A stretch of DNA of 40,186 nucleotides from Deltaproteobacteria bacterium. Lineage in GTDB: Bacteria; Myxococcota_A; Polyangia; Haliangiales; Haliangiaceae. The notes beneath the pieces were generated by a model. That model made no database searches, was not told the origin of the DNA, and saw only the letters and a list, made by a program, of their open reading frames with translations. Positions 12,368-19,017 of the stretch are shown here, in pieces. The position numbers were made by a program, and so were the translations under genes. Location of the stretch: positions 1-40,186 of the forward strand of contig JANXOM010000302.1 in assembly GCA_025353585.1 (NCBI GenBank), written 5' to 3'. Position 1 is the first letter of the stretch. The number at the start of each line of letters is the position of its first letter.

Positions 12368-12919
12368 ATGAGATCTCGCTCCGCCTCGACGCTTCGTGCG
12401 CTGACCCTCGGCTGTGGCCTGACCGTCGTCGTCGCGCTGACCGGCGCGTGCCGCAAGCACGACAACTCCGACGTCACCGCGCAGGCGAGCCGGGACCTTC
12501 GCCTGGCGCAGGAAGAAGCGAACACGCACGGCAAGGAGCTCGCCGCGAACCAGGCGGACATGGACCAGTCCAAGCGCGATCTCGTCGCACAACATCAAAA
12601 GGTCGCCGACACCGCGGAGGCCCTCGTGAAGCAGCAGGTCGCCGTCGGCTCGGCGCAGCTCACCCTGGCGAACGCCCGCCAGGCCTACGCGACCGCGATG
12701 ACCGACCGCCTCGCGCGCCTCGACGCCGATCTCGCCGAGCTCGCGGGTAAGGCCAAGGATGCCAAGGCCAAAGATACGCTCGCCGGCCTGCGCGCGCGGC
12801 GGGACGCCGTCGTCAGTACGTGGAAGGCCGCGACGGCCACGGTCGACGCCAACTGGGAGACGTACACGCGCGACCTGGACAGCACGCTGACCACGATCGA
12901 ACACGACGTCCATAACTAA
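12368..12919 (+). CDS. Coiled-coil lipoprotein
   Basis: 183 aa. The leader (LGCGLTVVVALTGAC) ends in a lipobox TGAC. The mature part is almost entirely helical, with long heptad-like stretches (ASRDLRLAQEEANTHGKELA, AALVKQQVAVGSAQLTLANA-like runs, DADLAELAGKAKDAKAKD), and ends at HDVHN. It is most likely a rod-shaped outer- or inner-membrane-anchored protein. It faces away from the small lipoprotein at 12275; the divergent gap is 92 bases. No family is recognised and there is no strong promoter match (GATACA six bases before ATG is weak). Confidence 0.75.
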   Translation: MRSRSASTLRALTLGCGLTVVVALTGACRKHDNSDVTAQASRDLRLAQEEANTHGKELAANQADMDQSKRDLVAQHQKVADTAEALVKQQVAVGSAQLTLANARQAYATAMTDRLARLDADLAELAGKAKDAKAKDTLAGLRARRDAVVSTWKAATATVDANWETYTRDLDSTLTTIEHDVHN

Positions 12920-12940
12920 CCTTCCCCGGACAATTGCGCA

Positions 12941-12955
12941 CGCCGGGCGCCGGCG
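12941..12955. terminator. GC hairpin between convergent genes
   Basis: CGCCGG-GCG-CCGGCG, a 6-bp stem in the 186-base gap between convergent genes (stops at 12919 and 13106). No U-tract; in DNA this rich in G+C such stems are common, so support is weak. Nothing else is recognised in the gap. Confidence 0.25.
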
Positions 12956-13105
12956 CACGGTCGCCGTGGTGCCGCGGCACGCCCGTGCGATCCCACGCAC
13001 CCGGCCGGATGACGATGCCGCGCCGCGCGCCCGCATGGTCGCCGCCACGTACCGCGAAGCGCGACGTGACCGAGGCCTCGGCTGCGCTGGGGCGGACGCC
13101 CGGCG

Positions 13106-13574
13106 CTACGCGAGCTGCCACAGCGCCGCGTACTCTGCGATGAGCCCATCGTACTCGCTCATCTCCGGCAGCTTCTCGTAGCTGTGGACGGCCGGTGTCG
13201 TCGCCCACGGCAGCTTCTCGCTCGTCCAGGTCTCGATGAACGGCGCGTACCAGCTCGGGTCGTCGAGCATCGTCGCCCGCAGGTTGACGAAGAAGTCGAT
13301 GCCATCGGGGCGCGTGAACATCCAGCTCATGCAGCGCGGGCAGAAGTAGTGCCGCGCCGCGCCGTGGAGGCCGCCGATCACCCGGGTCGCCCTGCGTGAC
13401 GGCGAACGCAGGCGTCGGGATCGCCGCGCTCAGCGAGTAGGCGCTCGAAGTCATGCGCTGGCAGCCGGTGCAGTGGCAGGCCATCGCGAGGAGCGGCCGC
13501 GCGCTGATCTGGATCCGCACCTGGCCGCAGCGGCAGCCGCCCGCCTGGGGAACGTCATGTCCGGTCCGCCGCAT
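13106..13574 (-). pseudogene. GFA-family (glutathione-dependent formaldehyde-activating-like) gene, frameshifted
   Basis: Two frames together make one GFA protein of about 155 aa. The first (from ATG 13574) reads GGCRCGQVRIQI, MACHCTGCQRMTSSAYSL, FAVTQGDP and then runs into nonsense. The next frame resumes exactly at VIGGLHGAARHYFCPRCMSW and continues to WATTPAVHSYEKLP and a stop at 13106. Removing one base from the CCCGGG run at 13381-13386 restores the family sequence. All zinc cysteines (CRC, CHCTGC, CPRC) are intact, which favours a recent mutation or a sequencing error over old decay. It starts 10 bases after the zwf stop and is probably co-transcribed with it. Confidence 0.8.
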
Positions 13575-13583
13575 CGCTCGGCC

Positions 13584-15530
13584 CTAACCAGCCTTGAGCG
13601 CGTCCGTGCCGACGTCGACACGGAAGCGCTCCTTTGCGACGCGCTGGATCGTGTCGGCGAAGGTCGGGTTGTCGCGCAAGATCCGGCTGAAGTCCGCCTT
13701 CGCGAGGACGTAGAGGTCGGTCGGGATCTTCGCGCGCACGGTGGCGTTGCGCGCCTTCGCCGTCAGCACGCCTACCTCGCCGAAGACGTCGCCGTCCGTC
13801 AGCACGCGGATCACCCCACCCGCGTCGTCGAGGACCTCGACCTCGCCCTGCTCGATCAGGAACAGCTCGCGGCCCGGGTCGCCCTTCGCGATCAGCACGT
13901 CGCCCGCGGCGACCTGGATCGGCTTGAGGGCCATGATCACCTGCTCGAGGAACACGGTGTCGCCGTCCCGGAACAGCGGTGACTGCTTGAGCACGTCCTC
14001 CGTCACGACCTCGAACCAGCGGCGCCCGTCGCGCGCGATCATCTCGGCGGCCGCCTTGGGGCCCCACGTGCTGCGGATGTAGTTCGGGAAGTCCGCCGGC
14101 GTCGCCGCCCAGCGATCGAGGATGGGCTGGGCCACGCGCCACGCGGCCTCCACGAGATCGCCGCGCGAGAACAGCGTCGCGTCGCCGTGCGAGCACGAGT
14201 AGATCATCACCTCGTAGCCCGTCGAGCGGCTGGCCTTGAACGCCTCGCCGTAGCCGAACTTCATGTGGACCGGCTGCAGCTGCATGCGCGGGCCCGGCAC
14301 CTTCGCCTGGAACTGGATCTCGATGCCCTGGTACGGCTGGATGTGAAAGATGAGGCGGTTCGCGTTCAGGCCGGTGATCGGCGTGCCACGGAAGATCACC
14401 TCCGGCGCCTTCTTGAACTCGACGACGATCTCCGTGCCGCGCTTCCACAGCGCCTTGCCCGAGCGCAGGTAGATCGGGACGCCTTCCCAGCGCCAGTTGT
14501 CGACGTGAAACTTCGCCGCGGCGTAGGTCTCCGTCTTGGACTCGGGGTTGACGTCCTTCTCCTGGCGATAGCCGGGCTTGTCGAGCGACGGCCCGTACTG
14601 GCCACGCACCGCGTTGAGATCGACCTCCTCGGGCGTGTAGTGCCGCACCGACTGCAGGAGCTTCGCCTTCTCGTTGCGGATCGCGTCGGGCTCGAACGAG
14701 CCCGGGACCTCCATGCACAGATACGCGAGCATCTGGAACATGTGGTTCTGCATCATGTCGCGCAGCACACCGGACGAGTCGTAGTAGCCGCCGCGCCCCT
14801 CGACGTCGACGGCCTCCGAGACGTTGAACTGGATGTTGTCGATGTGGTGCTTGTTCCAGAGTGGCTCGAACATGCCGTTCGAGAACCGGAACGCCAGGAG
14901 GTTCTGGACGGTCTCCTTGCCGAGGTAATGATCGACGCGATAGATCTGGTTCTCGTTCCAGTTCGCGAGGACCTCGCGGTTGAGCTGGAGCGCGGACTCG
15001 AGGCTCGTGCCGAACGGCTTCTCGACGATGACGCGCTTCCAGCCCGCGCCGTCCTTGAACCCGGTGTTATGCAAATTGTCGCAGAGCGTGCCGAAAAACC
15101 GCGGCGCGACCGCGAAGTAGAACAGCACGTTGCCGCCGGCGCCGTACTGCGCGTCGAGCTCGGCCACCTTGGCTTTGAGCGGATCGTAGATCTTGAGATC
15201 CGTGAAGCTGCCAGAGATGTAATGGAAGCGCGCGATCAGCTTGTCCCAGGCGGGCTGATCGAACTCCTTGCGCGTGTGGAACTTCTGGATGTCCTCGCTC
15301 ATCTTCGCGCGGAACTGCTCGGTCGTCATGCCGTCCATCGCGGTGCCGAGCACGGCGAAGTTCTCGGACAGGAGGCCATCGCACGCGAGGTTGTAGATCG
15401 CGGGGACGAGCAGGCGCTTCGTCAGATCGCCCGACGCACCGAAGATGAGCATGATGCACGGCTCGGTCGGCGGGCTCACGTCGGGAGCATCGGTCGCGGG
15501 CGAACGAAGGACAGCAGACGGGTCAGGCAT
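13584..15530 (-). CDS. zwf: Glucose-6-phosphate 1-dehydrogenase with a C-terminal cyclic-nucleotide-binding domain
   Basis: 648 aa, about 150 longer than usual Zwf. Residues ~25-508 are a full G6PD: NADP loop GASGDLTKR (31-39), EKPFG (170-174), substrate/active-site RVDHYLGKE (198-206). It oxidises glucose 6-phosphate to 6-phosphogluconolactone, the entry to the oxidative pentose phosphate pathway, in the cytosol. Residues ~511-640 form a Crp-type cyclic-nucleotide domain: LKQSPLF, AGDVLIAKGDPGRELFLIEQGEVEVL, then the phosphate-binding cassette VFGEVGVL...ARNATV with E585 and R594 intact. The N-terminal 24 residues are a Pro/Ser-rich extension. GAGGA lies 8 bases before ATG 15530. Direct control of G6PD by a cyclic nucleotide is inferred. 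The frameshifted GFA gene follows. Confidence 0.92.
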   Translation of the reverse strand: MPDPSAVLRSPATDAPDVSPPTEPCIMLIFGASGDLTKRLLVPAIYNLACDGLLSENFAVLGTAMDGMTTEQFRAKMSEDIQKFHTRKEFDQPAWDKLIARFHYISGSFTDLKIYDPLKAKVAELDAQYGAGGNVLFYFAVAPRFFGTLCDNLHNTGFKDGAGWKRVIVEKPFGTSLESALQLNREVLANWNENQIYRVDHYLGKETVQNLLAFRFSNGMFEPLWNKHHIDNIQFNVSEAVDVEGRGGYYDSSGVLRDMMQNHMFQMLAYLCMEVPGSFEPDAIRNEKAKLLQSVRHYTPEEVDLNAVRGQYGPSLDKPGYRQEKDVNPESKTETYAAAKFHVDNWRWEGVPIYLRSGKALWKRGTEIVVEFKKAPEVIFRGTPITGLNANRLIFHIQPYQGIEIQFQAKVPGPRMQLQPVHMKFGYGEAFKASRSTGYEVMIYSCSHGDATLFSRGDLVEAAWRVAQPILDRWAATPADFPNYIRSTWGPKAAAEMIARDGRRWFEVVTEDVLKQSPLFRDGDTVFLEQVIMALKPIQVAAGDVLIAKGDPGRELFLIEQGEVEVLDDAGGVIRVLTDGDVFGEVGVLTAKARNATVRAKIPTDLYVLAKADFSRILRDNPTFADTIQRVAKERFRVDVGTDALKAG

Positions 15531-15644: not shown

Positions 15645-17072
15645 TCAGGTGAAGAGCTTGAACATCCAGCCGAGCATCGTCTTCACGCTCTCCGTGTACG
15701 GCGGATACACGCGCTTCGTCAGATCGATCCGGCCCTGCCGCAGGACGGCGCGCTCGTGCGAGAACGCGCGGAAGCCGAACTCGCCGTGGTAGCTGCCGCT
15801 GCCGCTGGGGCCCACGCCGCCGAACGGCAGGTTCGGGTTCACGAAGTGCAGCAGCGTGCTGTTGACGCACGTACCGCCGGCGGTCGTGTTGTCGATGATC
15901 TCGTCGATGCGCGCGCGGTCATTGCCGAACACGTACAGCGCGAGGGGCTTGTCGCGCGCGGTGATGAACGGGGCGACGTCGCTCCAGGTCTCGTACGTGA
16001 GGATCGGCAGGATCGGGCCGAAGATCTCCTCGCTCATGAGCGCGGAGGCCGGCGTGACGTCCGTCAGCACCGTCGGGGCGATGTAGCGCTCACCGGCGTC
16101 AGTGGCGCCTCCGATCTCGATCGTCGCGCCGCTCGCGACGGTGTCGTCCAGCAGCTTCTTCAAGCGCGCGAAGTTGCGGTCGTCGATGATCCGACAGAGA
16201 TCGGGGGAGGCGCGGCGGGCCTCGTCGGACGCGCCATACGCGGCCGCGATGGCGGTGCGGAGCGCGGCCACCAGCGCGGGCTGCGTTCGCTTCGAGACGA
16301 GGACATAGTCCGGCGCGATGCAGGTCTGCCCGGCGTTGACGAACTTGCCCCAGACGAGGCGCTGCGCCGTGCTCGCGAGATCGGCCGAATCGTCGACGAC
16401 GCCCGGCGACGTGCCGCCGAGCTCCAGCGTGCTCGACGCGAGGTGACGGGCCGCCGCCTCGGCCACGATCTTCCCGACGCGCGTGCTGCCGGTGAAGAAG
16501 TAGTGATCGAACGGCAACGCGAGGAGCTGGCTCGCGACGGACGCGTCCCCCTCGACGACGGCGACCTCGTCCTCGGCGAACACGGCGCCGAGGAGCTCGG
16601 CGAGGAGCGCGGACGTCTTCGCCGTCAGCTCGGATGGCTTGACGATGACGCAGTTGCCGGCCGCGATCGCGGCGACGAGCGGCGCGATGACGAGCTGGAA
16701 CGGGTAGTTCCACGGGCCGATGAGGAGGCAGACGCCGCGGGGCTCGTAGTGGATGGCGCTGCTCGTGCCGAACAGCGAGGCCGGCGTGGCGACCTTGCGC
16801 GGCTTCATCCAGCCGGCGACCGAGTGGATGGCGTCCTTGATCTCGACGAGGCTCGCGAAGATCTCGGTCGTGTCGACCTCGGTCGGCGACTTCTTGAAGT
16901 CGGCGAACATCGCGGCGCGGATCGCGGGCTCGCGGGCGAGGATCGCGGCGCGCAGCTTCTCGAGCTTCGCGATGCGCTGGGCGGCCGTCGAGCGGCGCAC
17001 CGCGGCCTTGTTCGCTTGCTGGGCGCGAAAGAGGCGCGGGATGCGTTCGTCGGGCGGGGCGAGGGCGGCCAT
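15645..17072 (-). CDS. Class 3-type (fatty) aldehyde dehydrogenase
   Basis: 475 aa. ATG 17072 is chosen because the homologous sequence begins there and TAGGCT lies 7 bases upstream. NAD(P)-dependent oxidation of aldehydes to acids. Motifs: GPWNYPF (119-125), K145 in VKPSELT, glycine loop FFTGSTRVG, general base E217 in LELGG, nucleophile C251 in NAGQTC, EEIFGP. Length and sequence match the class 3 group, which oxidises medium/long-chain or aromatic aldehydes. The C-terminus (MLGWMFKLF) is amphipathic/hydrophobic, like the membrane-binding tails of fatty aldehyde dehydrogenases. The next gene on this strand is zwf, 114 bases downstream, so it could supply NADPH-linked chemistry, though no link is proven. 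Confidence 0.9.
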   Translation of the reverse strand: MAALAPPDERIPRLFRAQQANKAAVRRSTAAQRIAKLEKLRAAILAREPAIRAAMFADFKKSPTEVDTTEIFASLVEIKDAIHSVAGWMKPRKVATPASLFGTSSAIHYEPRGVCLLIGPWNYPFQLVIAPLVAAIAAGNCVIVKPSELTAKTSALLAELLGAVFAEDEVAVVEGDASVASQLLALPFDHYFFTGSTRVGKIVAEAAARHLASSTLELGGTSPGVVDDSADLASTAQRLVWGKFVNAGQTCIAPDYVLVSKRTQPALVAALRTAIAAAYGASDEARRASPDLCRIIDDRNFARLKKLLDDTVASGATIEIGGATDAGERYIAPTVLTDVTPASALMSEEIFGPILPILTYETWSDVAPFITARDKPLALYVFGNDRARIDEIIDNTTAGGTCVNSTLLHFVNPNLPFGGVGPSGSGSYHGEFGFRAFSHERAVLRQGRIDLTKRVYPPYTESVKTMLGWMFKLFT

Positions 17073-17079
17073 GTCGGCC

Positions 17080-17085
17080 AGCCTA
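17080..17085 (-). promoter_or_regulatory. -10 element TAGGCT, 7 nt before the aldehyde dehydrogenase gene
   Basis: Minus-strand TAGGCT, 7 bases, ATG 17072. Identical hexamer and spacing to the element at 19952. No Shine-Dalgarno. Confidence 0.6.
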
Positions 17086-17094
17086 CGCCATGCG

Positions 17095-19017
17095 TCAGAG
17101 CTCGACGAGGTTCGCGCGCAACCGCGCGAGGAGCTTGTCCGCCGCGGCGCCCCACGGGCCGCGCACGGTCTGGAACGCGATGCGGTGGTTGAGCGAGATG
17201 TCCTCGAGCGGGCGGGCGGCCACCTCCAGGAGCGGGAAGCCGCCGAAGCGAAAGCCGCGACGCAGATACTCGACGAGGCGACCGCGCCCGCGCTCGTGGA
17301 GCACGCGCGGATCGACGGCGTCCGCCGGCGTCGGCGGCGGGAGCTGGATCGTGTACGGCGGGCCGCCGCTGATGTTCTGCTTGTGCAGGTAGTCCGGCGC
17401 GAACTGCAGAGAGAACGGCCCGACGATCTCGACATCGGAGGCCGCGACGTCCGCCGCGTACTGCGCGAGCCCCTCCGCCGTCTCGACGGTGCCCTCGATC
17501 TCGAGCGGATCCAGCGCGATCAGCGCGATGCCATCGGCCGTCTGGAGGTCACAGGTGCCGTAGTCGATCCGCTCGGCGTCGCCGGGGACGAGCGCGAGCG
17601 AGCCGACGACGCGCCAGAACGCATCGAGCGCGAGCGGCAGCGGGCCGGTGAGCGCGACGACGCGCGCGTGGATCTCCGCATCGAACGCGGTCTCGGCGGC
17701 GAGGCGGGCGCCGGCCTCGCGGAGCGTCGCGCGGAGGGCATCGGCGTTCGCGCGCACGCGGCGCATGAGCGTGGCGGCGACGGCGGCGGCCTCGACGCGG
17801 AGCTCGGCGTGCTGCGCGATCGCCGGGCCGAGCGCGACGAGCTCGTCCCAGACGGCGTACTCGCCGCTCGCGTAGCGCGCGAGGAAGTCGCGGCGCGCGG
17901 GCAGGACGGCCGGGGCGAGCGCCGTGAGGCGGGGATGGCGCGCGATCGCGACGCGCGCGTCCGGCAGCGGGATGGCGCCGAGGACGCGACGCGCCGGCTC
18001 GTCGAGGCCGGGGACGTGCCGCAGCTCGGCCGCGAGCTCGACGAGGCGGGGCTCGCGCAGCAGCGGATCGCGCGCGGGCGCGACGCGGCGCGGGGTCTTG
18101 CCGCCGTGGCTCTGGTGGAGCACGAGGTGGACGAGGCGCGTGGCGACGGCGTCGCCGGTGCCAGCGCGCACGGCAACGATCTGGGCCGCGAAGCGAGCCC
18201 ACGCCGCGGCGGGGTCGCGAAGCAGCGCCGCGTGGATCGCGATGTTCTCGATGGTGGGATCGGCGTCATTCCACCGCGCCTCGAGGACCGCGGACGCGTC
18301 GGGATCGGCGATGCCGTGGAGCGCGTGGGCGGCCTCGGTCCGGATCACGCGGTTCGGGTGGCCCTCGAACAGGCGCAGGAGCAGCGGCGCGGCGTCGCGA
18401 TCACCGCGCATGCCGAGCACCTCGATGGCGCGCGTCACGCGGGCCCCGCCTTCGGGCATCCGCTGCGTGGCCGTCTCGGCGCGCTGCGCGGCGGGCGAGC
18501 GCGCCTGGAGCTCGGTCCAGGTCGGCCACGCGCGGAGCGCGAACGTCGCGAAGGTGCTCTGCTCGACGGACATGCGCAGGCGAGCGTCGACCTCCGGGTG
18601 CACGCTCCGCGCGAGGGCCTCGAGGCCGAGCTTGCCGTCGAGCGCGGTGAGCAGGAAAGCCAGCGCACGCTCGTCGGTGCTGTGCGCGAGGACGAGCGCG
18701 GCCGTCTTGCGGAGATCGACCGCGTACGGTCGCGCGGGGTCGCTGCGGACGAACACCGCGAGCGCGAGCGCCGGCTCGAGCATCGCCTCGCCGTCGCGGC
18801 GGGCGAGGCAGGACATCACCGCGCCGACCGCGCGCGTGTCCTCGGCGGCGATGGCGGCCGCGAACGCCGCGAGGTCCGGATAGACCTCGCCGACGAGCGG
18901 CACGCTGGCCTGCGTGCTCGGCACGCGGAAGCGCGGGGCGAGGTCGGCGTAGATCGCGGCGAGATCGGCGGTCGCGACCGCGGCCTGCACGGCCGCGATC
19001 GCCTCGGCGGCGGTCAT
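17095..19017 (-). CDS. HEAT-repeat protein with SMI1/KNR4-like C-terminal domain (tentative)
   Basis: 640 aa. The start codon follows the upstream stop directly (TAGATG), so translation is coupled to the DHH-like gene. Residues ~60-320 contain HEAT-type helical pairs (RDAAPLLLRLFEGHPNRVIRTEAAHALHGIADPDASAVLEAR). From ~480 on, ALDAFWRVVGSLALVPGD, IALDPLEIE, FAPDYLHKQNISGGPPYTIQLP and LRRGFRFGGFPLLE match a domain I have seen in many uncharacterised bacterial proteins. Some of these lie near SUKH/SMI1-type immunity or interaction modules. No catalytic motif or signal peptide is visible. It probably binds another protein; the partner may be the gene product at 19018. Confidence 0.65.
   Translation of the reverse strand: MTAAEAIAAVQAAVATADLAAIYADLAPRFRVPSTQASVPLVGEVYPDLAAFAAAIAAEDTRAVGAVMSCLARRDGEAMLEPALALAVFVRSDPARPYAVDLRKTAALVLAHSTDERALAFLLTALDGKLGLEALARSVHPEVDARLRMSVEQSTFATFALRAWPTWTELQARSPAAQRAETATQRMPEGGARVTRAIEVLGMRGDRDAAPLLLRLFEGHPNRVIRTEAAHALHGIADPDASAVLEARWNDADPTIENIAIHAALLRDPAAAWARFAAQIVAVRAGTGDAVATRLVHLVLHQSHGGKTPRRVAPARDPLLREPRLVELAAELRHVPGLDEPARRVLGAIPLPDARVAIARHPRLTALAPAVLPARRDFLARYASGEYAVWDELVALGPAIAQHAELRVEAAAVAATLMRRVRANADALRATLREAGARLAAETAFDAEIHARVVALTGPLPLALDAFWRVVGSLALVPGDAERIDYGTCDLQTADGIALIALDPLEIEGTVETAEGLAQYAADVAASDVEIVGPFSLQFAPDYLHKQNISGGPPYTIQLPPPTPADAVDPRVLHERGRGRLVEYLRRGFRFGGFPLLEVAARPLEDISLNHRIAFQTVRGPWGAAADKLLARLRANLVEL

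Follow-up and report, generated by a model that had tools for sequence, protein, structure and literature searches.

Results

A glucose-6-phosphate dehydrogenase joined to a cyclic nucleotide-binding domain

We analysed a 40,186-nucleotide stretch of DNA, here called the window, which is contig JANXOM010000302.1 (positions 1 to 40,186, forward strand) of assembly GCA_025353585.1, from a Deltaproteobacteria bacterium of the Haliangiaceae (Myxococcota). On its reverse strand lies a gene encoding a glucose-6-phosphate dehydrogenase (G6PD, the product of zwf) followed by a C-terminal cyclic nucleotide-binding (CNB) domain, with an aldehyde dehydrogenase gene upstream and a GFA-family open reading frame (ORF) downstream (Table 1). 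The initial annotation, made from the sequence alone, had proposed a complete G6PD and a CNB domain within one ORF, and this was confirmed by Pfam and by TIGR00871: all three Pfam domains scored above their gathering scores (67.4 bits against a threshold of 27.5 for PF00027), and the protein reached 573.9 bits on the zwf equivalog model TIGR00871, whose cut-off is 400.6. The motifs were also where that annotation had placed them, with GASGDLTKR at residues 31-39, RVDHYLGKE at 198-206, FGE at 583-585 and the cassette arginine at R594. By phmmer, the CNB domain of the fusion matched the CNB chains of PKG, PKA-R, SthK and HCN2. An artefact of assembly or reading frame was ruled out by 59 further fusions with an identical junction length, and we conclude that the fusion is a real and conserved family, apparently undescribed.

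Table 1. Features of the fusion gene and its surroundings (window positions unless a locus is named)
Feature	Position	Strand	Basis or remark
zwf-CNB fusion gene	13584..15530	-	ATG start, 648 aa
G6PD NAD(P)-binding domain, aa 29-210	14901..15446	-	PF00479 G6PD_N, E 1.2e-60; includes the GxxGDL fingerprint and RVDHYLGKE
G6PD C-terminal domain, aa 212-505	14016..14897	-	PF02781 G6PD_C, E 2.5e-110
Junction, W505 to F520	13971..14018	-	16 residues, constant across members
CNB beta-barrel domain, aa 539-621	13668..13916	-	PF00027 cNMP_binding, E 1.1e-18
Phosphate-binding cassette, aa 583-597, with E585 and R594	13740..13784	-	alignment conservation
Putative CNB C-terminal helix, aa 622-640, with invariant R635	13611..13667	-	helix by analogy
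Met65 codon, aligned with the Arg for the NADP+ 2'-phosphate in Leuconostoc (Arg46) and human G6PD (Arg72)	15336..15338	-	profile alignment
Trp362 codon, tracks CNB presence, aligned to human Asn363	14445..14447	-	profile alignment
Position 40 codon (Leu in fused clade)	15411-15413	-	alignment
Aldehyde dehydrogenase, upstream of the fusion, 114 bp gap	15645-17435	-	Pfam scan
GFA-family ORF, directly downstream of the fusion	12813-13574	-	Pfam match ends at model position 57 of 115
Stand-alone tandem-CNB protein between pgl and pgi, beside unfused zwf	L068, 4958-5869; L100, 6962-7879

The family was gathered by BLAST over a collection of loci (numbered L; their genomes are numbered G), which gave 58 fusions, reduced to 55 when the copies L060, L069 and L092 were dropped, with L100, L105 and the piece L156 excluded as partial; the scan of the species-genome collection returned the best 80 of 105 loci. 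These 55 loci and the window protein make up the 56 rows of the first alignment, to which four fusions were added later. Of the 59 further fused proteins, 56 are full length, and L098, L099 and L160 are fused but lack part of the N-terminus. Identity to the window protein ranges from 54 to 81% among the 55, which include the near copies L071/L072 (99.8%), L074/L077 and L079/L080.

The cyclic nucleotide pocket is conserved throughout the family

The initial annotation had let its reading depend on whether homologues keep the CNB pocket, and they do: E585 and R594 were found in 56/56 rows, and both residues, together with R635, in all four later fusions, so that the three are present in 60/60 overall. 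F520, G562, G580, G584, E585, L589, R594, A632 and R635 are all invariant in the 56-row alignment, and the remaining core glycines are nearly so (G543 in 50/56 and G550 in 55/56). The domain thus has the canonical cassette pattern, FGE followed by arginine together with the core glycines. R635 presumably lies where the C-helix of HCN channels places its purine-contacting arginine, and by analogy with CNB domains in general E585 would contact the ribose and R635 of the C-helix would act as a lid. The cassette arginine of the R594 type contacts the phosphate and co-evolves with a glycine of the beta2-beta3 loop (Kannan 2007, PMC2246266), which by our reading would be Gly550.

Less uniform are the positions following the arginine, with R+1 and R+3 both variable. 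The residue directly after R594 is T in 40 of the 56 rows, N in 8 (the window protein among them), I in 3, S in 3 and M in 2. As Table 1 of Kannan 2007 (PMC2246266) gives T at this position in PKG and HCN and A in PKA, the family appears closer to PKG and HCN in this respect; Bd1971 of Bdellovibrio, which has S there, answers to both cAMP and cGMP (PMC6717892). The cassette is of the canonical type for cyclic adenosine or guanosine monophosphate (cAMP or cGMP), but the R+1 residue does not single out the ligand. Nothing in the sequence speaks for cyclic di-GMP (c-di-GMP) or ATP, which the initial annotation had also listed for assay, since a cassette of this type is one for cAMP or cGMP.

A fixed junction and a tryptophan that tracks the CNB domain

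The spacing from W505 to F520 is exactly 16 residues in 56/56 rows and again in 55/55 rows of a second alignment, which shares most rows with the first and includes the four later members; none of W505, E507 and F520 varies across 50 fused rows. So constant a length speaks against the junction being a loose tether, and the 16 residues probably serve also as the N-terminal helical (N3A-type) element of the CNB domain.

Within the G6PD portion, Trp362 was found in 56/56 fused rows and 0/74 unfused rows, and in rows added later it was present in 3/4 fused and 0/19 unfused, giving totals of 59/60 and 0/93. The single fused exception, the long-branched L158, has Cys at 362 and an intact pocket, and the nearest unfused kin carry Gly (L093), Ser (L096) or Leu (L153). 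A similar pattern was seen at position 441, with Val in 54/56 fused rows and 1/74 unfused rows. By profile alignment, counted on the printed rows, Trp362 corresponds to human Asn363, which section 2.1 of PMC11448927 gives as an example of a residue linking the C-terminal NADP+ site with the substrate site. Human Lys366 aligned to Gly365, a position occupied by G in 47, S in 7 and A in 2 of the 56 fused rows, and so no equivalent of this lysine, which binds the 2'-phosphate of the structural NADP+, was found in the family. Because Trp362 matches Asn363 while Lys366 is replaced, we propose that the CNB domain would use the old C-terminal route without NADP+. Together, the fixed junction and W362 suggest that the CNB domain is coupled to the active site.

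An intact catalytic core with an altered coenzyme site

Across 50 fused rows no substitution occurs at K171, D200, H201, Y202, K205, E239, D258, H263, K359 or Q398, so that the D200-H263 dyad and the substrate residues K171, H201, Y202, K205, K359 and Q398 are intact in 50/50 fusions. The numbering of the window protein happens to run near that of human G6PD, for which section 2.1 of PMC11448927 gives the roles of several of these residues. The core is predicted to be intact for the oxidation of glucose-6-phosphate.

The coenzyme site, which the initial annotation had overlooked, differs from that of an NADP+-specific enzyme. Arginine at position 65, the 2'-phosphate position, was found in 19/54 fused rows versus 67/72 unfused rows (Fisher p 2.5e-12, uncorrected for kinship; here and at position 40 the counts omit two gapped fused rows and the unfused kin L093 and L096). 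The window protein has Met65 and is one of 35/54 fused rows lacking the arginine. Loss of Arg65 was rejected as a clade-wide mark, since 19 fused rows retain it. A missing arginine at this position is taken as a sign of lowered NADP+ affinity (Volke et al., PMC8546961), and from Met65 we predict a preference for NAD+ or a relaxed use of coenzymes; that the window enzyme is not NADP+-specific seems to us a reasonably good prediction, and its product may be NADH no less than NADPH. At position 40, Leu was found in 54/54 fused rows and Lys in 70/72 unfused rows. As the unfused kin L093, L096 and L153 also have Leu40, the change from Lys probably preceded the gain of the CNB domain.

Distribution and evolutionary history

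The complete fusion was found in 4/56 genomes (that of the window and its relatives), the other three proteins being 66-81% identical to that of the window. In wider samples, each including its centre genome, it was found in 13/377 genomes of Myxococcota (the window's genome counted), 4/294 of Planctomycetota (the phylum of G439), 2/321 of the gammaproteobacterial class of G429 and 2/247 of Acidobacteriota (the phylum of G424); the last three were searched at strict E-values, and these are rough frequencies of 1-3%. Titles of the fusion records name seven phyla: Myxococcota, Planctomycetota, Acidobacteriota, Verrucomicrobiota, Pseudomonadota, Bdellovibrionota and Rokuibacteriota. All named records are titled as metagenome-assembled genomes (MAGs) and some taxon labels are doubtful, the near copies L071 and L072 being assigned to different phyla, and the label Bordetella parapertussis on L097 was not accepted at face value. 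A tblastn search of 72,556 plasmid records at E 1e-100 returned 77 records, all below 60% identity; among the 60 matches listed, 59 stop at or before query residue 516 and one at 548, and none is a fusion.

Trees of the G6PD domains were built with FastTree and carry local support only. In the tree of 95 domains, 51 fused rows fell on one side of a branch with support of 90. In the tree of 100 rows, the unfused L153 and L096 diverge before the fusions (support 98 for the branch without L153, only 80 for that without L096), and the unfused L093 is nested among them (95 for a branch of three rows, 80 for its pairing with L144); L093 had stood outside the fusions in the 95-domain tree, before L143 and L144 joined. 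Two changes of CNB state are required on the 100-row tree, the best reading being a single gain with a loss, in L093, nested inside the fused clade, although the tree itself cannot tell gain from loss. The L093 reading frame stops seven residues beyond its match, the DNA beyond having been inspected by eye only. Independent repeated fusions were not supported, with 51 fused rows together in one tree and two changes needed in the later one. Since phyla are mixed inside the fused clade, transfer between phyla is suggested, within the limits of the MAG labels.

Other G6PDs in the carrier genomes

We searched 31 genomes chosen from the collection loci, 30 of them fusion carriers (including G437, whose fusion is split across two contigs) and the other, G438, holding the unfused L093 only. 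A further G6PD match at E 1e-40 was found in 28/30 fusion genomes, partial in G414, G421 and G434, and none at that threshold in G410 and G427. These matches rule out that the fusion serves every carrier as its sole G6PD. The planctomycete G439 has four matches, namely a fusion and two unfused near-clade members (L144, L152, L153) and a further G6PD of 45% identity.

Among Myxococcota, the fusion was the only match at E 1e-60 in 9/13 fusion genomes, the window's genome included, when three candidates were scored in each; these nine genomes are 77-95% complete. The window's own genome (8.0 Mb in 437 contigs, 90% complete) has a single G6PD_N match, which is the fusion, and two matches to the 6-phosphogluconate dehydrogenase (6PGD) family, one covering the whole domain and one partial; its relatives G001 and G023 have further G6PDs. 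The fusion is thus an extra isozyme in many carriers and perhaps the sole G6PD in some Myxococcota, including that of the window.

Gene neighbourhoods and nucleotide cyclases

Genes of the pathway (gnd, pgl, pgi, tal) were found in the flanks of 6/60 entries, counted over 59 loci (three pairs of which are the same gene) and the window, with flanks of up to 10 kb and often of about 1.5 kb. The close relatives L068 and L100 share the order tal-gnd-zwf-pgl-tandemCNB-pgi-msrB-zwfCNB on one strand, genome G237 (L041, L184) has pgl-gnd-zwfCNB on one strand, and in L055 gnd precedes the fusion in the same orientation; on the opposite strand, gnd lies in L072 and tal and pgi in L098. A tblastn search of the window with the L068 genes found no pathway gene besides the fusion. 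No operon partner conserved across phyla was found among 29 distinct neighbour ORFs scanned of 195, whose functions are mostly unrelated.

The stand-alone tandem-CNB protein of L068 has both cassettes intact, and it might act in trans on the neighbouring unfused Zwf. It was found in 5/229 genomes of the class of L068 at E 1e-45, its own included, and none of tal, gnd, zwf, pgl or pgi occurred in the stretches taken around the four other tandem-CNB genes.

Side observations were made on several flanking genes. A glycosidase of about 900 residues, resembling GH63/MGH1, lies beside or near the fusion in L055, L066, L067, L071, L072 and L097 (L071 and L072 are nearly identical to each other, and the Pfam scan covered four of the six). 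In the window, the upstream aldehyde dehydrogenase, whose best NCBIfam match is the benzaldehyde dehydrogenase MdlD at a score below its cut-off, is possibly co-transcribed with the fusion; at L069, a locus of the same genus, the two flanking ORFs scanned are other than aldehyde dehydrogenases. The remaining family sequence of the downstream GFA-family ORF seems by eye to run in another frame, and the ORF looks frameshifted, by sequencing error or as a pseudogene.

Class III cyclase domains gave eight hits in the window's genome and were present in 34/34 genomes of the clade (counting G438, which has no CNB), compared with 41/59 comparison genomes at E 1e-10 (Fisher p 1.8e-4). The comparison genomes were unmatched, being those heading the lists of the Planctomycetota, gammaproteobacterial and Acidobacteriota samples, with the 0.4-Mb G747 omitted. 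The presence of a cyclase is a necessary condition for signalling by a cyclic nucleotide, and not proof of it.

Discussion

A G6PD that may be regulated in cis

The conserved pocket, the constant length of the junction and a residue of the G6PD portion that goes with the CNB domain make control in cis by a cyclic nucleotide the best reading of this family, and we think it likely that a cyclic nucleotide changes the activity of this G6PD, as an isozyme regulated through its own canonical CNB domain. In favour of this reading are also the invariant catalytic residues, the pathway genes beside the fusion in G237, L068 and L100, the cyclase domains in all genomes of the clade and the precedent of Bd1971. 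The initial annotation had gone further, placing entry into the oxidative pentose phosphate pathway under direct nucleotide control; the part concerning the enzyme itself is supported by the conserved pocket, and control of the pathway entry is not supported as worded there, given the second G6PD match in 28/30 carrier genomes.

In the mechanism that we propose, the intact G6PD core would oxidise glucose-6-phosphate, with the window enzyme probably taking NAD+ or both coenzymes, and cAMP or cGMP would enter the cassette, where E585 would hold the ribose and R594 the phosphate while R635 of the C-helix closes as a lid. On binding, the CNB helices would shift, and the motion would travel through the C-terminal tail and the loop of K359, Trp362 and R364 to the site of the substrate phosphate, a path corresponding to the C-terminal route used by structural NADP+ in human G6PD. 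The nucleotide would most likely relieve an inhibition, and we lean towards activation rather than inhibition as its effect. A fuller account, in which a cAMP- or cGMP-gated G6PD of NAD+-preferring or dual coenzyme use arose when a CNB domain took over the C-terminal allosteric site at which structural NADP+ acts in animals (through the Trp362/Asn363 position), moved between phyla and became the sole G6PD of some Myxococcota, is offered only tentatively, and we would sooner expect it to fail in some part than to hold entire.

Several observations weigh against control in cis. The correlation of Trp362 with the CNB domain rests on few evolutionary events, and L158 is fused with its pocket intact and yet has Cys at this position. 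The residue following R594 varies across the family, and the CNB domain is less conserved than the G6PD, with a mean pairwise identity of 0.53 versus 0.62-0.73. Most loci have no pathway gene nearby, many flanks being short, and the excess of cyclases is entangled with differences in genome size and with the lack of Myxococcota in the comparison set.

The lower conservation of the CNB domain would also suit a structural binder of ligand or an oligomerisation module that leaves G6PD activity ungated by any signal. Dimerisation is known for the CNB domains of both CRP and Bd1971 (PMC6717892), and the C-terminal NADP+ of human G6PD is both stabilising and regulatory (PMC11448927); a pure scaffold, however, would not need E585 and R594, which are kept in 60/60 fusions, and both W362 and the fixed junction point to a link with the active site, so that we consider a purely structural role unlikely. 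That the CNB fold senses some other ligand, in the manner of CooA (haem) or CprK (chlorophenols), appears more unlikely still. CNB families with other ligands have been described (Kannan 2007, PMC2246266) and the variation at R+1 and R+3 would fit one, but the cassette of CooA is non-canonical in that survey whereas the fusion family keeps FGE, the arginine and the core glycines.

A docking or localising domain, which would place Zwf beside a partner such as the tandem-CNB protein or an encapsulin, would fit the operon shared with the tandem-CNB gene in the gammaproteobacterial L068 and L100 and the weak match of the CNB domain to the encapsulin model of family 2B (35.9 bits against a cut-off of 400). 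That operon is limited to two related genomes, however, and no cNMP_binding match was found in the seven neighbouring ORFs of the window that were scanned, and we give docking very little weight. Least probable of all, to our minds, is a protein whose G6PD portion has degenerated to leave a cyclic nucleotide sensor that no longer oxidises glucose-6-phosphate: a second G6PD is usual in the carriers and the usual Lys40 is Leu in every fused row counted, but every catalytic and substrate residue checked is invariant, the fusion is the only G6PD found in nine of the 13 Myxococcota fusion genomes, and in G237 it lies in an operon with pgl and gnd.

Relation to known systems

The fusion shares with canonical Zwf (TIGR00871) an entire catalytic unit scoring above the equivalog cut-off, and differs in its C-terminal CNB domain, the replacement of Lys40 by Leu, the presence of Trp362 and the loss of Arg65 in 35/54 rows. 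We know of no NAD+-type or dual-coenzyme G6PD isozyme with a CNB domain. The mycobacterial acetyltransferase Pat (NF058543), which the CNB domain of the fusion matches weakly (46.7 bits, cut-off 460), is presumably an enzyme controlled by its fused CNB domain, and it differs in governing protein acetylation, not being a step of central metabolism itself.

Other likenesses are closer in single respects. NAD+-type and dual-coenzyme enzymes such as G6PDH-B of P. putida (PMC8546961) resemble the window protein in lacking the discriminating arginine and in often being accompanied by a second isozyme. Human G6PD (PMC11448927) uses its C-terminus and the K360-K366 loop as an allosteric path, as proposed for the fusion, to which W362 belongs by its alignment with Asn363, but its Lys366 binds structural NADP+, whereas the fusion has Gly365 and a separate allosteric domain. 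G6PD is joined to other domains in the fusions with 6-phosphogluconolactonase (6PGL) and 6PGD (PMC3148214), where the partner is a pathway enzyme; that paper is a survey of eukaryotes, and the word "cyclic" is absent from it. Bd1971, a CNB-EAL protein, is a bacterial enzyme under a CNB switch in cis, with cAMP or cGMP raising its c-di-GMP turnover about 8-fold, and differs in that its CNB domain is N-terminal and the enzyme a c-di-GMP phosphodiesterase (PMC6717892). The Bact_Pyrredox family (Kannan 2007 Table 1, PMC2246266) also places CNB domains on an NAD(P)-linked oxidoreductase, but these are tandem CNBs on a pyridine nucleotide-disulphide oxidoreductase.

The text of the CNB survey (Kannan 2007, PMC2246266) lacks the words "glucose", "dehydrogenase" and "G6PD", and PMC7093602, which matched G6PD and CNB terms, uses them in unrelated senses. 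A recent review of G6PD structure lacks the word "cyclic". No description of the G6PD-CNB architecture was found among the literature matches listed, in a search that took in neither papers behind subscription nor InterPro and similar domain databases. Such databases probably list the architecture automatically.

In bacteria, the effects of cAMP on metabolism are generally ascribed to CRP-type transcription factors. If our reading is true, the fusion would provide a direct and fast link from a cyclic nucleotide to carbon and redox flux through G6PD, with a second messenger acting on the entry enzyme of the oxidative pentose phosphate pathway itself. The gain of the CNB domain, its probable loss and a co-varying residue would then form a natural system for dissecting how the C-terminus of G6PD controls the active site, a question also relevant for human G6PD variants.

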